Notes under the pieces: model-generated
Seen by the model: the letters and a program-made list of their open reading frames with translations, nothing else
What the model was told of the DNA's origin: nothing
Databases searched by the model: none
Translations under genes and position numbers: made by a program
From: Saprospiraceae bacterium
GTDB lineage: Bacteria; Bacteroidota; Bacteroidia; Chitinophagales; Saprospiraceae
DNA: 64,000 nt
Assembly: GCA_021604865.1 (NCBI GenBank)
Contig: BQJU01000021.1
Location: 1-64,000 of the forward strand
Direction: 5' to 3'
Shown here: positions 3,497 to 34,148 of the stretch, piece by piece
How the letters are laid out: every line of letters starts with the position of its first letter
How positions within the stretch are numbered: position 1 is the first letter of the stretch

Positions 3497-3595
3497 CGAT
3501 CTTACGCAACAACTTTATTTGCTACATTGCTACCTTAAAAATTCAGTAAGGTTGCCCGAATTTCCCTATCTTGTTTTCCCAAATATTGAGAACCG

Positions 3596-6394
3596 ATGTC
3601 AGAAAAAAAGCTCTTCCTGCTAGACGGACACGCTTTGGTTTATAGGGCGCATTTTGCGTTTATTTCCCGCCCTCTTATCAACTCTAAAGGGTTTAACACC
3701 TCTGCGATTACGGGATTCACTCGTACACTTTGGGATTTGATGAAAAATCAGAGTCCTTCCCATATTGCCGTAGCATTTGACCCACATGGCCCTACTTTTC
3801 GGCATGAAATGTATGAGCCTTATAAAGCCAACCGGGAGGAACAACCCGATGATATCCGTAATTCCTTCCCCTACATTCACCGTATTGTGAAGGGATTTAA
3901 TATTCCAATTGTCACTGTTAACAATTATGAGGCGGATGATGTGATTGGCACTTTATCCAAACAAGCAGAAAAGGAAGGTTTTAGCGTTTACATGGTTACA
4001 CCTGACAAGGATTATTGTCAACTGGTATCGGAGAATATTTTTATGTACAAACCGTCCCGGCAAGGTAATGGTGTGGATATCTGGGGCCTAAATGAAGTTT
4101 GTGAAAATTGGGGCGTAAAACGTGCAGATCAGGTGATCGATATGCTGGGATTGAGTGGCGATAGTGTAGATAATATTCCGGGTATTCCGGGTATCGGCCT
4201 TAAAACCGCAGCCAAACTATTAGCCGAATATGATAGCATTGAAGGATTATTGGCCAATACGGATAAATTGAAAGGCAAACAAAAAGAAAAAGTGGAACAA
4301 TTCGCAGAACAAGGGCTACTCTCGAAAAGACTGGCTACCATTGATGTGAATGTACCCATTCAGTTTGATGCAAAGGCTTATGAAATAGAGCCATTTAATC
4401 GGGAAATACTTACCGAAGTTTTTAAAGAGTTGGAATTCCGTACATTAGCCCAGACCATTCTGGGAACAGAGGAGGAACAACCGGTTTCAAAAGCTGGTGT
4501 CCAGGGTAACTTATTTGGTGATGTTGTAACACCGGCATCTACCCGAAGCACAAAACCTGCTGCCCATTCCGTCGCAGATAACCACATAGGCAATACCGAA
4601 CACACTTATCACCTGACCAATAGTCCAGATAAAATTGCCGCCTTAATCGACCTGTTGTCCAAACAGAAAAGTATTTGTTTTGACACCGAAACAACCAATA
4701 TTGATGCCAATCAGGCTGAGTTGGTTGGCATGTCTTTTTCGGTGAAGGTAGGAGAAGCTTATTACGTACCTATTCCTGAAAAAAGAGCAGATGCAGAAGC
4801 ACTGGTGGAACAGTTTAAAGCAATTTTTGAAAATCCTGATATTGAAAAAACAGGGCAAAATATCAAATATGATGCTCTGGTGCTCAAATGGTACAACATT
4901 GAACTGAAAGGTATCTTTTTTGATACCATGGTGGTTCATTATTTGCTGGAACCTGAACTTCGCCACAATATGGACTACCTGGCGGAGACTTATCTCAAAT
5001 ACAAACCGGTTTCCATTACGACTCTTATCGGGAAAAAAGGTAAGCACCAGCTGACCATGCGGGATATTTCTGTTGAGAAGGTAGCAGACTATGCTGCCGA
5101 AGATGCCGACATTACGTTACAGTTAAGGGAGTTTCTTGCCCCAAAACTGGAAGAAGCTGGTCTGCAAAAACTGTATACTGAGCTGGAAGAGCCACTAATC
5201 AATGTATTGATTGACATCGAATTTGAAGGCATCAACTTGAATTCGGAATTACTGGAAACATATACAAAAGAACTGGAAGGTAATATTCTGTCTACAGAGC
5301 AGAAAATTTACGATACAGCAGGGACCCGGTTTAATATTGCCTCGCCCAAACAGGTGGGAGAAGTTCTATTTGATAAAATGGGCATTCCTTACCGTTGGCG
5401 CAAAACAAAAACCGGACAGTATTCTACAGATGAAGAAAAACTGACGGAATTGGCCAAAGAACAACCCATTGTGGACGATATTTTGCGGTTCCGGGGATTG
5501 TCAAAATTGAAATCAACCTATGTTGATGCCTTACCCCGAATGGTAAATCCTAAGACTGGCCGGGTGCATTCTTCTTTCAATCAAACCATTGCAGCTACGG
5601 GGCGATTGAGTTCCACCAATCCCAATATGCAAAATATCCCGATCCGTACCCCAGAAGGGGCCAAGGTACGGGAAGCTTTTATCCCGAGAGATAGTAACCA
5701 TCTGTTGTTGGCGGCCGATTATTCACAAATAGAGCTTAGACTGATTGCTGAAATTAGTGGCGACGCAAATATGTTGGAGGCTTTTCAGCAAAACCTGGAT
5801 ATTCATGCAGCAACAGCTGCGGGTGTTTTTGGCGTACCATACGATGAAGTGACCAAAGAACAGCGCTATCGGGCCAAAACCGTGAATTTTAGCATTACTT
5901 ATGGTGCCGGAGCAACCAATTTATCGCGTCAACTGGACATCAAACGTAGTGAAGCCAGTGAAATTATCGAGCAATATTTCCGACAATACCAGGGCTTGAA
6001 AAAATATATGGATGAAGTTGTTGAAAATGCACGGAGGGACGGATTCGTGACTACGTTGATGGGGCGGAAACGCTATTTGCGGGATATTAACTCTAAAAGC
6101 TCTCTTGCCCGTAGTAATGCCGAACGTATTGCCATTAATACCCCCATTCAAGGTACTGCCGCCGATATGATCAAAGTGGCCATGATCAATATACATCGAG
6201 TTTTAAAAGAAGGCAATTTCAAAACAAAAATGATCCTTCAGGTACATGACGAATTGGTTTTCGATGTTCCTAAAACGGAAATGGAAACCGTAAAACCCAT
6301 CATCCTGGATAAAATGAAAAATGCTATTCCCAATCTCAAGGTACCTATTCAGGTAGGCATGGATACTGGAGAGAATTGGTTGGAAGCACATTAA
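3596..6394 (+). CDS. polA: DNA polymerase I
   Basis: This is the full three-domain enzyme (932 residues) for gap filling, Okazaki-primer removal and repair. The 5' nuclease domain occupies about 1-300 (LFLLDGHALVYRAHFA at the start; YEADDVIGTL and GLSGDSVDNIPGIPGIG). The 3'-5' exonuclease domain is at about 335-530 and keeps its metal ligands: DTETT, NIKYD and the YxxxD of YAAEDADIT, so proofreading should be active. The polymerase domain holds motif A (DYSQIELR), motif B (RAKTVNFSITYG, with Phe at the position that discriminates against dideoxynucleotides) and motif C (VHDE). lpxD follows 24 bases downstream in the same direction, so the two may share a transcript. Confidence 0.97.
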   Translation: MSEKKLFLLDGHALVYRAHFAFISRPLINSKGFNTSAITGFTRTLWDLMKNQSPSHIAVAFDPHGPTFRHEMYEPYKANREEQPDDIRNSFPYIHRIVKGFNIPIVTVNNYEADDVIGTLSKQAEKEGFSVYMVTPDKDYCQLVSENIFMYKPSRQGNGVDIWGLNEVCENWGVKRADQVIDMLGLSGDSVDNIPGIPGIGLKTAAKLLAEYDSIEGLLANTDKLKGKQKEKVEQFAEQGLLSKRLATIDVNVPIQFDAKAYEIEPFNREILTEVFKELEFRTLAQTILGTEEEQPVSKAGVQGNLFGDVVTPASTRSTKPAAHSVADNHIGNTEHTYHLTNSPDKIAALIDLLSKQKSICFDTETTNIDANQAELVGMSFSVKVGEAYYVPIPEKRADAEALVEQFKAIFENPDIEKTGQNIKYDALVLKWYNIELKGIFFDTMVVHYLLEPELRHNMDYLAETYLKYKPVSITTLIGKKGKHQLTMRDISVEKVADYAAEDADITLQLREFLAPKLEEAGLQKLYTELEEPLINVLIDIEFEGINLNSELLETYTKELEGNILSTEQKIYDTAGTRFNIASPKQVGEVLFDKMGIPYRWRKTKTGQYSTDEEKLTELAKEQPIVDDILRFRGLSKLKSTYVDALPRMVNPKTGRVHSSFNQTIAATGRLSSTNPNMQNIPIRTPEGAKVREAFIPRDSNHLLLAADYSQIELRLIAEISGDANMLEAFQQNLDIHAATAAGVFGVPYDEVTKEQRYRAKTVNFSITYGAGATNLSRQLDIKRSEASEIIEQYFRQYQGLKKYMDEVVENARRDGFVTTLMGRKRYLRDINSKSSLARSNAERIAINTPIQGTAADMIKVAMINIHRVLKEGNFKTKMILQVHDELVFDVPKTEMETVKPIILDKMKNAIPNLKVPIQVGMDTGENWLEAH

Positions 6395-29281: not shown

Positions 29282-29818
29282 TTATTCTTTTTCTAATTGT
29301 TGAATAATTTTTTCTATTTCAAGAATAATAGTGGGGATATCAACTTTTGCTGTCTCCCAAACAGTGCCTAAGTCAACATCGAAATAGTCATGAATCAGTT
29401 TATCTCTCATACCTGCAACTGCTCTCCATGGAATATTATCGAATCTCTGTCTCAACTCAATGCTAATCCGTTTTGTTGCTTCGCCTGACACTTCTATTTT
29501 CCTTATTACCGCGTCTTGTTTCTCCTCATCAATTAAAAAATCATCGTAGCTTACCTGTTCCGTATTCTCAGAGCTTGTTTGGAGGTCGGCTTTGCATCGC
29601 CGTCGGCAAGCCTATGGCGGCCGATGGGAGGCGAAAAGCGTCAGTTTTTTGATGAGATAAGGCTTTTTTTGAAGTTCATACCCGGAGGTACGGACGAGAA
29701 AAGTAACGAAGTATCATCGAAAAAGTGATCCTTTGCAGCCCAATGGTTGGCCTCCAAACATGCTCTCAATTACCTTTGTCAGACTTTGCAGGATGTGGTC
29801 AAGATATATATAGGTCGC
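29282..29818 (-). pseudogene. hepT: hepT (DUF86 / HEPN) toxin gene split by a MITE-like insertion
   Basis: Two minus-strand pieces make one HepT protein. The first (29818-29765) reads ATYIYLDHILQSLTKVIE. The second (29566-29282) reads [20 protein letters not shown] to the C-terminus QQLEKE and contains the HEPN RxxxxH-like motif in [11 protein letters not shown]. Between them lies a 194-bp element (29571-29764) flanked by CTCA on both sides. Removing the element and one CTCA joins the pieces in the same frame ([11 protein letters not shown]), giving 112 residues, the normal HepT size. No ATG, GTG or TTG is in frame just upstream, so there may be a second lesion at the 5' end. HepT is a MntA-neutralised RNase-type toxin; this copy should be inactive. 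Confidence 0.85.
29567..29768. mobile_element. MITE-like element, copy A (inserted in hepT)
   Basis: The 194-bp core (29571-29764) is flanked by the direct repeat CTCA (29567-29570 and 29765-29768). Its ends are inverted: GAGCTTGTTTGGAGG on the left, and AGCATGTTTGGAGG read inward from the right. It has no significant open reading frame. A second copy (B) lies in opposite orientation at 32162-32519. They share, among others, a perfect 25-base block (29659-29683 with 32278-32302) and a perfect 21-base block (29709-29729 with 32197-32217). Non-autonomous terminal-inverted-repeat elements of this size need a transposase in trans, and none is in the window. Confidence 0.8.
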
Positions 29819-29998: not shown

Positions 29999-30373
29999 CT
30001 ACCCTACGACCTTACTAACCACCTCCGGCCCCCGCCCAAATAACTGCCGCTCACTTCGGCCAGCCTTCAACTGTTTCATCAAATAATCTGCTCCAGCAGG
30101 CAAATCAATCTGCCCACAAGTAAAGATATCAATGGCCGCATAACCATGCTCCGGCCAGCTATGAATGGTAAGGTGACTTTCCTGAATAATTACTACGCCG
30201 GAAACACCGTAGGGAGAAAAAGTATGGAAGTTGGAAGTCACAACTGTGGCTCCCATGAGTTCGGCGGCCTGACACAGGCTGCTTTCCAGAAAAGTAGTAT
30301 CCTTCAGAATATGCTCCGGGCAGTCGTGTAGCTCCAGGAGCAGATGTCGGCCGAGTGTTTTGGGACATTCCAT
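29999..30373 (-). CDS. speD: S-adenosylmethionine decarboxylase proenzyme
   Basis: The 124-residue proenzyme of the short prokaryotic class self-cleaves to form a pyruvoyl group and makes decarboxylated AdoMet, the aminopropyl donor for spermidine. The cleavage serine and neighbours are in ESHLTIHSWPEHGYAAIDIFTCG, which is diagnostic. The start at 30373 (MECPKTLGRHLLLELHDC) is right for the family; the frame is open further up, but that part is antisense-like sequence within the neighbouring gene. It begins 10 bases after the stop of the glutathionylspermidine-synthase-like gene, so the three minus-strand genes form one operon. Confidence 0.93.
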   Translation of the reverse strand: MECPKTLGRHLLLELHDCPEHILKDTTFLESSLCQAAELMGATVVTSNFHTFSPYGVSGVVIIQESHLTIHSWPEHGYAAIDIFTCGQIDLPAGADYLMKQLKAGRSERQLFGRGPEVVSKVVG

Positions 30374-30383
30374 ACTGGTAAAA

Positions 30384-31607
30384 TTAGGGTTCAATAAAAT
30401 GGCTGACAAATTCGGCATCATCATCCACAATGTGGTCATCCTGACGGCGGAAACAAAGGGCAGAAGCATCGCCACTCCAAAAGACGCTGGGCTGGTAGAT
30501 ATCGCCATCTTCGTCTTTGTCAAATTGGGCCAAAGCCTGGTAAATAACCGGAAAATCACCATAATCACCGTCATTTTCGGCAAAAGGACGGTTCGCCTGA
30601 TAGAAGAGCGCCACATTATCCCCAGTACGCCCAAAGATCGGCTTGCGGGCGAAATGACCCGTTGGGAAATCGACCTGATGCAGGCTTGTTTTTAATAAGG
30701 CTGGATGATTTTTATTTTGCTCGTACAGTAGAGGTAACAGGCCCTTGGATTGTAAAAGCATGGTCCAGGCCGGATTGATCACAATGGCTAATTTATTGGT
30801 GATAATAGATGTCAGCATCTCCATGAGCTCCGGTTCTTCGTAGGCAATAAACTCCCAGGGAACCATCTTATACCAAAAATCGAAACGCACAAAATTGTCC
30901 GGGCCCTTTTCTACAAAAAGGCCTTCATCTGGCGAAAAAATAACCCGCTCCAATTCCACGGTCATGATTTCCTCAAACCCGGCATTTTTTGCTGCCAGGG
31001 CTATTAGTTCCAGATTGATCCAGTCTTCGGGATGGCCTAGTCCGGAAAGTAGCAAAGCAGGAAATTTATCGGGATTGCCCTGGATCAGCTGCTCAAAATG
31101 TTTGGTGAGCTTTGGTAACAGGGAATTGAACTGGCCGGCATTTTTTCGCAACTTACGGGGTAGGTTATCTATCTGGCCAGCCTGGACGTGCACCGTTTCC
31201 GGCATCAGGGAACAAGTATCGGCATTAAATTCCAGCAGCTTTAAAGGGGCCTTGCCCAATCCACCTGCAAAATCAAAACGCCCGACCAAATGCAGGTGTT
31301 GTTCGTGCTGCATCGACCAGGCTACCAGCTTTTGTGCATTGGCAGGCACACCCACCTGATGCCAAAGCTGGTGTTGCACAATGTGTCTGGCTGTCGCAAG
31401 CATTTTTTCATAAATGGCTTCAGTAACTTCTTTAAAGGCGCGGGCTTCATCGCGGCTCACCTGAATCATTTCGGGAGCAAGATAGTCCTCGTTTTCGCCT
31501 TTAATAAACCACTCCAGTCCGTGTTTTCTCAAAAAACGAGCTGGTGGTCTTCCGGTTTCGATGAGTCGATTATCCACCAAAAGAACGGCTTGATTTAGAG
31601 GAACCAT
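30384..31607 (-). CDS. glutathionylspermidine synthase-like ATP-grasp ligase
   Basis: The 407-residue protein has the synthetase (ATP-grasp) domain only, without the N-terminal CHAP amidase of E. coli Gss, so it resembles YgiC/YjfC. Visible signatures are KLLEFNADTCSLMPE near the N-terminal third, NPAWTMLLQSKGLLPLLYEQ, and the ATP-grasp loop ARKPIFGRTGDNV. Family members form amide bonds between a carboxylate peptide and an amine. It starts inside the 3' end of the upstream YgiB-like gene (38-base overlap), implying translational coupling, and is followed by speD. Substrates are unknown: free glutathione and spermidine, or a protein C-terminus, are possibilities. Confidence 0.87.
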   Translation of the reverse strand: MVPLNQAVLLVDNRLIETGRPPARFLRKHGLEWFIKGENEDYLAPEMIQVSRDEARAFKEVTEAIYEKMLATARHIVQHQLWHQVGVPANAQKLVAWSMQHEQHLHLVGRFDFAGGLGKAPLKLLEFNADTCSLMPETVHVQAGQIDNLPRKLRKNAGQFNSLLPKLTKHFEQLIQGNPDKFPALLLSGLGHPEDWINLELIALAAKNAGFEEIMTVELERVIFSPDEGLFVEKGPDNFVRFDFWYKMVPWEFIAYEEPELMEMLTSIITNKLAIVINPAWTMLLQSKGLLPLLYEQNKNHPALLKTSLHQVDFPTGHFARKPIFGRTGDNVALFYQANRPFAENDGDYGDFPVIYQALAQFDKDEDGDIYQPSVFWSGDASALCFRRQDDHIVDDDAEFVSHFIEP

Positions 31608-32109
31608 AACCGGACTTACCCGTTGAAGGCCGACGTACAGTCTGCCGGTTGGCCGTATTACGCAGATTTTGACCAGCATTATTGTTGACGCGATCATAGG
31701 TGCGCTGATCCATATAGGCGCCTGACATCGGCGGTCTGCTCATACTGCGGCCCAGCATATAACCCATTAATCCATAAGAAACAGCCCGGTATATGTAGCG
31801 ATTACTGCCCTGGTAATCTCCTTCGGTGCCGATAGAGCTAAGCTTGGCCTCTTCGAGAGTAAGGGTATCAACGGTATTGTCGAGATGTTTGGCGATAATG
31901 CGGCTTTCTTCCGGAGTGGGTACCGTTTGCTCATCTTCAATTTTGTAGGTGCTGTCGCTAACTTGCTGTACTGTAGTAATCAACCCTTGGGTAGGCGTTA
32001 CAATTTCTTCATTTTCGTAGCTTTCTCCGTTAGCACTATCGCTACCTGAATAAACGTAGAAGAGTACCACCATTCCTAACACACCATAGAGGATCCACTT
32101 AAGTTTCAT
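31570..32109 (-). CDS. YgiB-like (UPF0441/DUF1190-type) membrane-anchored protein ending in Gly-Gly
   Basis: The 179-residue protein has one N-terminal membrane helix (ILYGVLGMVVLFYVYSG), a polar middle, a GLMGYMLGRSMSRPP segment followed by AYMDQRTYDRV, and a Ser/Arg/Gly-rich tail ending SSKSSRSFGG. The GYMxGR segment and SSRSxGG end recall E. coli YgiB, whose gene also precedes a YgiC-type ligase. I am comparing from memory, not by alignment. It overlaps the ligase gene by 38 bases. The start at 32109 places the membrane helix at the N-terminus; a longer frame reaches 32166. The exposed Gly-Gly end could be a ligase substrate, which is inference. Confidence 0.7.
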   Translation of the reverse strand: MKLKWILYGVLGMVVLFYVYSGSDSANGESYENEEIVTPTQGLITTVQQVSDSTYKIEDEQTVPTPEESRIIAKHLDNTVDTLTLEEAKLSSIGTEGDYQGSNRYIYRAVSYGLMGYMLGRSMSRPPMSGAYMDQRTYDRVNNNAGQNLRNTANRQTVRRPSTGKSGYGSSKSSRSFGG

Positions 32110-32157
32110 TTGTTTATATTTTGTTTGAAAAATTCTCTTATTTCCTTGAAATGCACT

Positions 32158-32523
32158 TAAGTGCATGTTTGGAGGTCAAACCTCGGGCTGTGAAACATCA
32201 CTTTTTCGATGATACTTTCCCGACCTAGCGGTTTCCCTTCGGCGGGACAGGCTGATACTTTTCTTGTCCGTGCCTTTGGGTATGAACTTCAAAAAAAGCC
32301 TTGCAGCATCAAAAAGTTGATACTTTTCACCATCCATCGGCCGCCATGCGTCTACTCTGCCTTCGCGAAGCTACGGCGAAGCAAGGTGCTGAGTCCTTCG
32401 CCAAAGGCTACGGCCGCGCGCCGTCGTCGAAGCCTTTCGCTTGCGCCGAAGCTTCAGCGAAGGAGCATGGCACAGACGCCCGGGGAACGGCGATGCAAAT
32501 CCGACCTCCAAACAAGCACTAAG
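32158..32523. mobile_element. MITE-like element, copy B (inverted relative to A)
   Basis: The core at 32162-32519 (358 bp) has inverted ends: TGCATGTTTGGAGG on the left, and GTGCTTGTTTGGAGG read inward from the right. TAAG occurs on both sides (32158-32161, 32520-32523). Its sequence aligns along its whole length with the reverse complement of copy A; most of the extra length is a GC-rich block (about 32350-32470). It fills the space between the divergent YgiB-like operon and the membrane spermidine synthase gene, so it must lie in or next to their promoters. The left edge also forms a perfect 14-base palindrome (TGCACTTAAGTGCA, 32152-32165). Confidence 0.75.
32350..32470. repeat. GC-rich nested palindromic block inside element B
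   Basis: This block, absent from copy A, is far richer in GC than its surroundings. It is built from repeats of CCTTCGC...AAGCTACGGC (32359 onward and again from 32395) and the inverted form GCGAAG / CTTCAGCGAAGG. Short open frames across it have no family resemblance. It looks like a second repeat family inserted in, or expanded within, the element. Confidence 0.6.
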
Positions 32524-32597
32524 CCTGAAATTACCAAATTAAAATACAAAATGGACTTACTAATACCAATTTTCTAAATTTGCCACAAAGATTCAAT

Positions 32598-34148
32598 ATG
32601 ACCAACTGGAACAAAGAAAAGGGGATACTCGGCTTTGCCATTTTTATCGCGGGCCTTTGTTCCATTGTTTATGAGTTGCTCATCAGCACCACTACATCCT
32701 ATTTTTTGGGGGATAGCATCCGGCAGTTTTCATTGACTATAGGTATATACATGGCCGCCATGGGGTTTGGTTCCTTCCTCAGCCGTTATTTTTCGGAGAA
32801 GGGTTTATTGACGTCATTTATTGCCGTAGAGATTGCATTAGGATTAATTGGTGGTAGCAGCGTGCCACTATTGTATTATTTTTTTGAGCGGCTTTCGCCA
32901 AATAACTACCTTCTGCTGATGATCGTGCTGACGGGATTGATTGGCGTACTGACCGGTTTTGAAATTCCACTGCTGGCACGCATTATGAAAAAGTATTACT
33001 CCCTGCGTGAAAATCTGGCCAATGTGCTTGGACTGGATTATCTGGGCGCTTTATTGGCCACTTTACTTTTTCCTTTTCTGCTGCTACCCTTTTGGGGCAT
33101 CTTTCGCACTTCCGTTTTTTTTGGATTGATCAATATTTTGCTTGGAATTTTTATATTGGGATTTGTGCGCAAAGAAATGGCCAAAGACTTGAAAATCAGC
33201 TTTTTTAGCTTGTCTGTACTCATTGCAGGGGCCTTTGCAGCGCTTTTTTATTTTTCAAAACCCATCCTTCAACGTTGGGATGACCAGTTGTTTACGCATA
33301 GGGTCGTTTATTCAGAACAGACGCCTTATCAACATTTGGTGCTCACCCGCAATAAGTCGGATTTAAGGTTGTACATCAACCGAGTCATCCAGTTTTCTTC
33401 TCTGGACGAATACCGGTATCATGAAGCCCTGGCTTTAGTGCCGCTACAATTGGCACCTTACCGAAAGCGGGTATTGGTACTAGGCGGTGGAGAAGGGTTG
33501 CTGGTCAGAGAATTATTAAAAGATTCTTCTATCCAAAAAATTACGGTCGTAGATCTCGACCCCGCAGTTTTTGCCCTGGCCCGCAATAATGTACACCTAC
33601 GCACACTCAATGAAGGTGTATTGGATAACCCCAGGGTAGAAACGCTCAGCCTGGATGCTGCCGAATATTTACGTGAAACAACCGAACTATTCGACCTGAT
33701 CATCTCCGACCTGCCCGACCCAACTAACGAAGCGGTGGCCCGGTTGTATAGCACCCATTTTTTTCGCGCAGCTAAAAATCGGCTGACACCAAACGGCATC
33801 TTTGCCACTCAGGCTTCCAGTCCTTTCCATACGCGTAATGCTTATTGGTGCATTTATGAAACCCTTAAGGCCAGCGGTTTTGCAGAGGTCCTTCCATACC
33901 ACGCCTATGTGCCCTCCTTTGGCGATTGGGGATTCCTGATAGCTGCTGATATTCCCTTGCCGACGGCAGCTATTCAGTTGCGCTATCCTACCAAATTTCT
34001 GGAAAATGGCATGCTGAATCAGCTATTTTATTTCACAAAAGATATTGAAAATCCTGGCGGGCTTTCGCCCAATAGGCTAGATCAATTACCCTTGTTGCAA
34101 TATTATTTGGAGGATTGGGCGCAATGGAGCCGGGAGAAGGTGAAGTGA
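32598..34148 (+). CDS. speE: membrane-bound spermidine synthase (polyamine aminopropyltransferase with TM domain)
   Basis: The 516-residue protein has about seven TM helices in residues 8-220 (LGFAIFIAGLCSIVYELLI opens the domain) followed by a spermidine-synthase Rossmann domain. The latter shows YQHLVLTR, the AdoMet loop VLVLGGGEGLLVRELL, ITVVDLDPAVF and LIISDLPDPTNEAVARLYS with the catalytic Asp. It would transfer the aminopropyl group of decarboxylated AdoMet (made by the SpeD at 29999) to an amine. The ATG at 32598 is preferred over a TTG at 32580. It is divergent from the YgiB-like/ligase/speD operon across element B, so the locus is functionally one unit. Confidence 0.88.
   Translation: MTNWNKEKGILGFAIFIAGLCSIVYELLISTTTSYFLGDSIRQFSLTIGIYMAAMGFGSFLSRYFSEKGLLTSFIAVEIALGLIGGSSVPLLYYFFERLSPNNYLLLMIVLTGLIGVLTGFEIPLLARIMKKYYSLRENLANVLGLDYLGALLATLLFPFLLLPFWGIFRTSVFFGLINILLGIFILGFVRKEMAKDLKISFFSLSVLIAGAFAALFYFSKPILQRWDDQLFTHRVVYSEQTPYQHLVLTRNKSDLRLYINRVIQFSSLDEYRYHEALALVPLQLAPYRKRVLVLGGGEGLLVRELLKDSSIQKITVVDLDPAVFALARNNVHLRTLNEGVLDNPRVETLSLDAAEYLRETTELFDLIISDLPDPTNEAVARLYSTHFFRAAKNRLTPNGIFATQASSPFHTRNAYWCIYETLKASGFAEVLPYHAYVPSFGDWGFLIAADIPLPTAAIQLRYPTKFLENGMLNQLFYFTKDIENPGGLSPNRLDQLPLLQYYLEDWAQWSREKVK

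Follow-up and report, generated by a model that had tools for sequence, protein, structure and literature searches.

A locus in a 64,000-nucleotide stretch of Saprospiraceae bacterium DNA (GenBank assembly GCA_021604865.1, contig BQJU01000021.1, positions 1 to 64,000; hereafter the window) raises the question of why a small predicted membrane protein with a Gly-Gly end is encoded beside an amide-forming ligase and an enzyme of polyamine synthesis. An earlier note had raised the possibility that a polyamine is attached to the C-terminus of this protein, here called the partner. Its outline of the gene order holds: the minus-strand open reading frame (ORF) of 179 amino acids does end in SSKSSRSFGG, and it is followed by a glutathionylspermidine-synthase-like ligase gene and then by speD, both of which score above the cut-offs of their profiles (PF03738 and TIGR03330). 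With regard to the C-terminus, it is considered moderately probable that the partner C-terminus is the acyl substrate of the ligase, which would attach an amine, probably spermidine, to the carboxylate at the end of the tail. This part of the note gains support from the joint travel of tail and ligase, the predicted disorder of the tail, its very small last residue and the names given to the relatives in Escherichia coli; its emphasis on an invariant Gly-Gly has to be modified, as described below.

The ligase and the tailed protein that accompanies it

By sequence, the ligase is a member of the GSP_synth family (PF03738; 266.3 bits against a cut-off of 29.3, with profile positions 5-371 of 371 covered), and its predicted fold and conserved residues place its predicted activity with the YgiC/YjfC kind. 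The closest solved relatives by sequence are E. coli YjfC (E 8.6e-26; 27% identity over 378 columns) and YgiC (6.1e-19). A structure model of 407 amino acids with a predicted local distance difference test score (pLDDT) of 92.5 has its best fold match in YjfC (Z 47.7, root-mean-square deviation 2.0, 374 residues), with GspSA below it at Z 42.6 and trypanothione synthetase at Z 34.9, and shows a stand-alone synthetase fold with no amidase domain. The equivalents of YjfC R101, D103, E116, N118, D120, K265 and K302 are identical in all 121 ligases counted, and that of R367 in 119 of them; these residues presumably bind ATP and Mg. In the reaction of glutathionylspermidine synthetase, spermidine is coupled to glutathione through the carboxylate of its glycine, and YgiC and YjfC reportedly act on peptides. 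Both E. coli proteins bear the RefSeq name peptide--spermidine ligase and are termed recently characterised peptidylpolyamine synthetases in a passage of PMC12568646, and a passage of PMC12506659, citing Sui 2012 as its source, describes YgiC as lacking glutathionylspermidine synthase activity.

An alignment-based scan returned 587 relatives of the ligase, none having been returned by an earlier scan with a single ligase sequence as query. The comparison covers 141 ligase loci, comprising 44 from the family of the window, 78 non-duplicate named loci (from the best 80 of the 587), E. coli ygiC and yjfC, and 17 plasmid regions hand-picked for variety among lists of 164 and 140 matching records. 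Two duplicates, L076 and L155, were removed as coming from the same genomes as L041 and L061, and the residue count of 121 ligases also omits L072, L073 and L062, whose ligase frames are broken or cut. In 137 of the 141 loci the ligase has a companion protein with a tail rich in Ser, Gly, Arg and Lys, mostly encoded just upstream and otherwise elsewhere in the genome; none was found for L031, L072, L084 (searched beside the ligase) and L167 (4/141). Such partners span Bacteroidota, Campylobacterota and Proteobacteria, with four more phyla represented in a few plasmid loci. One genome, G055, has two tandem partner genes (L213: 1131-1910 and 1944-2891), ending in RSSYGG and SSSSHSG, whereas its ligase lies on a different contig; the second is treated as an extra row and not as an extra locus, which gives 138 partners for 137 loci.

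The tail frequently follows one plan, in which a core such as SG[FY][FG] or RGGFG is followed by a stretch rich in Ser, Gly, Lys and Arg and then by the end of the protein. Compared with a background of 779 ORFs of 120 amino acids or more, taken longest-first from the same loci, the core [SKR]G[FY][FG] occurs within the last 45 residues of 86 of the 138 partners (background 5/779), and a last 20 residues rich in Gly/Ser/Thr/Arg/Lys with a small end residue in 136 (4/779). The last residue is Gly in 107 partners, Ser in 29 and Ala in 2, so that all 138 end in one of these three residues (142/779), and a Gly-Gly end is found in 104 (3/779). These counts are not fully independent of the idea of a tail, because ten rows ('other', 7, and 'group B', 3) were chosen because they lie upstream of the ligase and were judged by eye, and the profiles used for the remaining rows include the tail. 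The sample excludes DUF4247 proteins, a further partner type named in a passage of PMC11237479.

Similar ends, judged by eye, occur on otherwise unlike-looking upstream proteins in plasmid loci of Deinococcus, Acinetobacter, Bacillus, Virgibacillus, Sphingomonas, Leptolyngbya and Tsukamurella, the Leptolyngbya end being the least clear of the seven. The Virgibacillus and Bacillus proteins, the only two of the seven compared with Pfam, have no match over cut-off. In E. coli, YgiB ends in SSRSMGG and YjfM in ARGHWGG.

A few individual loci deserve description. On a Bacillus subtilis plasmid (L170, 2910-5225), a tailed small lipoprotein-like gene and a ligase gene are followed by a gene of the poly-gamma-glutamate hydrolase family, whose product might be a peptidase reversing the bond. 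A Roseomonas haemaphysalidis plasmid (L166, 2209-4559) carries two tandem GSP_synth ligase genes and then DUF350 and DUF1190 genes, the ligase pair perhaps reflecting two amines or two substrates. In a further locus (L040, G014:C205), a hydrolase-like gene lies within a 1290-base gap between partner and ligase, and the partner end is still RSSGG.

The partner had been called YgiB-like, a description that stands as a distant relationship and not as family membership. Pfam DUF1190 (PF06693) matches neither the window partner nor any protein in 296 genomes of the window's phylum, the window genome included, and the only match of the partner in two profile libraries is NCBIfam PRK04081 (NF003146), at 21.2 bits and hence below the cut-off of 194; a Campylobacter jejuni 414 partner, with a ligase alongside, reaches 312.9 bits with the same profile. 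In a profile-profile comparison by hhalign, the window-type family matches DUF1190 with 96.9% probability (E 1.5e-10) over profile columns 126-205, which hold the Gly-rich helix and the tail. By the cut-offs of these profiles, the window partner is a relative of DUF1190 and PRK04081 but a member of neither. Its small domain is confidently predicted (residues 41-90, block means of pLDDT 81-92), and its tail is predicted to be disordered (block means of about 40-50 with a 14-sequence alignment), the last 34 residues being hydrophilic. The last 19 residues are nevertheless the best-conserved segment, with a mean top-residue fraction of 0.72 against 0.33-0.59 elsewhere among 39 window-family proteins, and of 0.55 against 0.31-0.49 in other segments over all 117 window-type proteins.

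Partner and ligase also go together in gene content. Among 150 window-family genomes, drawn from a larger group, a GSP_synth match is found in 44 and the partner in 38: both occur in 38 genomes, the ligase only in 6, the partner only in none, and neither in 106 (Fisher p 1.3e-29, uncorrected for kinship). In three of the ligase-only genomes (G045, G066 and G099), the upstream gene encodes another, different lipoprotein-like protein whose tail carries RGGFG. In G145 no such protein is present in the stretches read, the ligase of G049 is interrupted by two stops, and that of G101 is a weak match under the cut-off. In 11 of the 80 named loci no partner was found beside the ligase, and all 10 of the 10 searchable genomes among them carry one elsewhere.

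Weighing a possible C-terminal amidation

As regards the carboxylate, the amine, the purpose and the topology, the proposal would run as follows. Partner and ligase would form a membrane-protein C-terminal amidation system, in which the ATP-grasp ligase would convert the carboxylate at the end of the partner's basic, disordered tail into an acyl phosphate and then couple it to a primary amine, spermidine or a related aminopropyl amine being the most likely, by the chemistry of glutathionylspermidine synthetase but on a protein C-terminus. To reach the active site, the tail would have to end in a very small residue, usually Gly and sometimes Ser or Ala. With its added positive charges, it would bind to anionic lipids or nucleic acids, or signal to the membrane how much polyamine is supplied. 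In the window family, SpeD and the divergently encoded fusion protein would supply or extend the aminopropyl part. No proposal of the partner C-terminus as acyl substrate was found in the passages of the literature searched, a scope that did not include the most relevant paper (Pederick 2023). Within the window genome, a search for further substrates with the pattern R-S-[FY]-G-G-stop alone gave 3 places, against 5 in a reversed control, and the partner is the only one at which the pattern forms a gene end.

The charge distribution bears on membrane topology. The segment after the Gly-rich stretch is net positive in 137 of the 138 partners, whereas the region that leads from the first hydrophobic segment to the Gly-rich one carries a net negative charge in 130. 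This pattern fits a protein that is anchored at its N-terminus, has a domain on the outside, crosses the membrane a second time and ends with its tail in the cytoplasm, where there is ATP. Median hydropathy of the second segment is 1.61 in the Campylobacterota group, 0.75 in the window family and 0.89 in DUF1190; these segments come from a simple scan of hydropathy, in which the second is misplaced for some proteins. The C. jejuni member of PRK04081 is presumably Cj0371. This protein is termed a transmembrane protein in a passage of PMC6104132, and green fluorescent protein fused to cj0371 without its stop codon gave fluorescence at the cell poles according to a passage of PMC4944492, which suggests a cytoplasmic C-terminus for this relative.

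Several observations weigh against the proposal. Invariance of Gly-Gly beside the ligase, which the earlier note had wanted checked in homologues and whose absence it would have counted as a refutation, does not hold in its strict form, so that this refuting condition applies in part: 34 of the 138 partners have Ser, Ala or a single Gly there instead, among them Cytophagales with ends in SS, RS or HS and Helicobacter with IS, VS, SS, TS, GS or GA. Mapped on a tree of 136 ligases, the Gly-Gly label switches 16 times, and well-supported branches force at least 12 of these switches; strict invariance is rejected on both grounds. In addition, Gly-Gly ends become rarer with gene distance, from 47/54 in overlapping pairs through 34/43 at 0-20 bases and 18/27 at more than 20 bases to 5/14 in unlinked or other-side partners (three of those called unlinked, L077, L128 and L138, sit near a contig end, and their true linkage may differ); the lower share in unlinked and other-side partners than in overlapping ones is what a DNA-level cause would predict. 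A lipoprotein signal, by a loose pattern, is present in 90 of the 138 partners, and the short partners of the Virgibacillus and Bacillus plasmids show no second hydrophobic segment, so that such tails may lie beyond the cytoplasm and its ATP. Among the 17 plasmid loci, L167 of Azospirillum brasilense has a ligase with no tail-bearing protein just upstream, and none is suggested by the annotated neighbours in the 8 kb. Neither a SpeD relative nor the fusion lies within about 4 kb of the ligase in any of 77 non-Saprospiraceae named loci, and the literature passages searched do not describe any partner protein in modified form. The L167 ligase itself (3516-4607) is a distant GSP_synth member, with 26% identity to YjfC.

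Among the alternatives, the one that survives best, although it is judged unlikely, is that the ligase makes a small peptide-polyamine metabolite and that the partner is an unmodified regulator or anchor whose tail docks the ligase or senses its product. The nearest characterised relatives do use small substrates, namely glutathione for GspSA and, to go by the title of Pederick 2023, peptides for YgiC and YjfC. A low-complexity basic tail could well be a docking site, and the frequency of the [SKR]G[FY][FG] core means that recognition need not involve the terminus. A docking tail, however, has no need of a Gly, Ser or Ala last residue in every partner, nor need it sit at the extreme C-terminus of unlike-looking proteins.

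An improbable alternative is that the Gly-Gly end merely results from the packing of the genes, its codons doubling as the ligase start or as a Shine-Dalgarno sequence (GGAGG) and its residues having no role. The spacing trend given above speaks for it, as do the overlapping pairs of the Saprospiraceae family: all 34 end in Gly-Gly, and 25 have a ligase-frame ATG (23) or TTG (2) inside the [FY]-G-G-stop codons, one example being TATGGTGGATAA, which contains ATG GTG GAT AA. Among partners of Campylobacterota and Gammaproteobacteria, 27 with a Gly-Gly end precede the ligase by 0-20 bases, and 17 of these have GGAGG in their last 12 bases, as against 0 of the 9 partners without Gly-Gly. On the other side, the remaining 9 overlapping family pairs have no start there and end in Gly-Gly nonetheless; the end is kept in two thirds of the partners more than 20 bases from the ligase; and the terminal codon pairs are of 15 kinds, with GGAGG in only 37 of the 104 Gly-Gly partners. 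Moreover, a Sulfitobacter partner located downstream of its own ligase still ends in GFGG, and the remainder of the tail is conserved too. On the tree, the comparison of Gly-Gly with gene adjacency rests on 12 independent pairs (median p 0.625).

Overlap with the ligase start can thus explain part of the [FY]GG conservation in the window family, and elsewhere the Gly-Gly codons may act as a ribosome-binding site; as a full account of the Gly-Gly end, start-codon or Shine-Dalgarno overlap is rejected, leaving it as a partial cause. Gly, Ser or Ala is the last residue of all 41 partners that are distant (more than 20 bases), unlinked or on the other side, so a constraint seems to act on the protein end itself, towards a very small last residue and not strictly towards Gly-Gly.

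Very improbable is the idea that the tail serves independently for sorting or anchoring, as a C-terminal sorting tag or a basic tail that binds the membrane, and merely travels with the ligase: the acidic-before, basic-after arrangement around the Gly-rich segment is a membrane-topology charge pattern and would suit it, but C-terminal sorting tags as generally known have a hydrophobic helix after the motif, whereas here the protein ends at the motif, and a partner without a ligase occurs in none of the 150 genomes. The GlyGly-CTERM tag in particular consists of Gly-Gly, then a hydrophobic helix and then a basic end; it is ruled out for the window partner, which stops at Gly-Gly with no such helix after it.

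Layout of the locus and the polyamine genes

Table 1. Features of the partner-ligase locus, with positions in the window
Feature	Position	Strand	Remarks
Partner gene (candidate substrate), 179 amino acids	31570..32109	-	ATG at 32109; C-terminal end SSKSSRSFGG
Partner layout	31570..32109	-	Hydrophobic anchor at the N-terminus, then a small beta domain, the Gly-rich helix and a basic tail predicted to be disordered
Partner small domain, residues 36-92	31834..32004	-	Four strands and one helix, by structure prediction
Partner Gly-rich helix G-L-M-G-Y-M-L-G-R, residues 104-123	31741..31800	-	Possible second membrane segment
Partner conserved tail, residues 161-179	31573..31629	-	PSTGKSGYGSSKSSRSFGG
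Overlap of partner end (F-G-G-stop) and probable ligase TTG start (31580)	31570..31580	-	
Ligase, GSP_synth family ATP-grasp, YjfC/YgiC kind	30384..31607	-	Start at 31580 or 31607
speD, S-adenosylmethionine (AdoMet) decarboxylase	29999..30373	-	Sole AdoMet_dc match in the genome
Divergent fusion of membrane domain and spermidine-synthase domain (PRK03612)	32580..34148	+	

Partner and ligase genes do overlap, as had been reported, but the length given for the overlap probably needs correction. An overlap of 38 bases presupposes the ATG at 31607; the alternative start, TTG at 31580, reduces it to 11 bases. In the window, the partner end TTT GGT GGA TAA, shifted by one base, reads TTG GTG GAT AAT, and because the ligase-frame ATG or TTG stands at this same position in the 25 family pairs mentioned above, TTG 31580 is the likely start of the window ligase. 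The three-gene operon is bracketed by two copies of an intergenic repeat in opposite orientation (29567-29777 and 32149-32523), whose arms are 81-92% complementary; the copy at 32149-32523 matches 64 pieces in the genome, itself counted.

The SpeD protein scores 129.3 bits with TIGR03330 (cut-off 75.65), and the divergent fusion gene, absent from the earlier note, 562.8 bits with PRK03612 (cut-off 472). The carboxyspermidine route is also represented in the window genome, by nspC (522 bits, cut-off 409), and this other spermidine route may leave the single AdoMet decarboxylase of the genome free for the ligase locus. Within up to about 7 kb of the ligase (less at contig ends), 27 of 45 family loci have a SpeD relative, and 29 of 47 have the membrane-fused spermidine synthase, a figure that becomes 27 of 45 once two duplicates are removed. 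In the set of 150 genomes, again without correction for kinship, an AdoMet decarboxylase occurs in 34 of the 44 with the ligase versus 12 of the 106 without it, and the fusion, over its cut-off, in 35 of 44 versus 15 of 106. Given that neither gene was found within about 4 kb of the ligase in the 77 other named loci, the amine in most bacteria may well be ordinary spermidine, a local supply being an addition specific to this family. Single-sequence searches, a weak test, revealed no DUF350, PspA, YjfI or YjfK near the ligase at E 1e-3 in 124 loci.

A broader picture can be sketched, which is doubtful at present: bacteria may widely tag membrane-protein tails with a C-terminal polyamine, unlike proteins having gained the tail, and in Saprospiraceae the divergent aminopropyltransferase may lengthen the amine at the membrane with the aminopropyl donor supplied by SpeD.

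Implications and comparison with known systems

In the passages of the literature searched, which did not extend to Pederick 2023, no physiological substrate of YgiC or YjfC was found named. The travel of the tail with this ligase family across phyla would provide a candidate substrate in E. coli K-12 itself, where the Gly-Gly ends of YgiB and YjfM make the idea testable. If it is true, bacteria would possess C-terminal polyamination by an ATP-grasp enzyme, comparable with the spermidine conjugates reported for SUMO, and the presence of an AdoMet decarboxylase and a membrane-fused aminopropyltransferase beside ligases in an nspC-encoding genome could be explained.

The E. coli loci are similar to that of the window in several respects. 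YgiC and YjfC (PDB 7uk6, 7uk7, 7uk8 and 7uka) share the ligase family and the predicted fold, the order of partner and then ligase is the same in the YgiB and YjfM loci, and these two DUF1190 proteins have a lipobox-like or membrane start, a Gly-rich segment and a basic, Gly-Gly-ended tail, as does the window partner. The window differs in having speD and the spermidine-synthase fusion alongside, whereas yjfM and yjfC have DUF350, PspA and DUF2491 genes. The PRK04081 proteins of Campylobacterota are likewise similar in architecture and tail, that of C. jejuni ending in FGS where the window partner ends in FGG.

GspSA and trypanothione synthetase have the synthetase fold and a sequence relation in common with the window ligase. 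Unlike GspSA, the ligase has no amidase domain, and its proposed acyl substrate is a protein C-terminus instead of glutathione. Also similar in gene content are the PSP-linked polyamine operons (Ravi 2024, PMC11237479), which, as described in a passage of that paper, combine a GSPS-like ATP-grasp enzyme, a DUF1190 or DUF4247 lipoprotein and an AdoMet decarboxylase. The proposals made there are monitoring of polyamines or aminopropylation of other substrates, partner C-termini being unmentioned in the passages concerned; in contrast to those operons, the window locus gave no PspA or DUF350 match in the single-sequence search. A reaction like the proposed one is reported from eukaryotes: according to a passage of PMC12270671, spermidine is joined to the C-terminal Gly-Gly carboxylate of SUMO and ubiquitin, the mass added to SUMO being given there as +127.15 Da (spermidine minus water). 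This conjugation is carried out by E1 and E2 enzymes, whereas in the window an ATP-grasp ligase would perform it.

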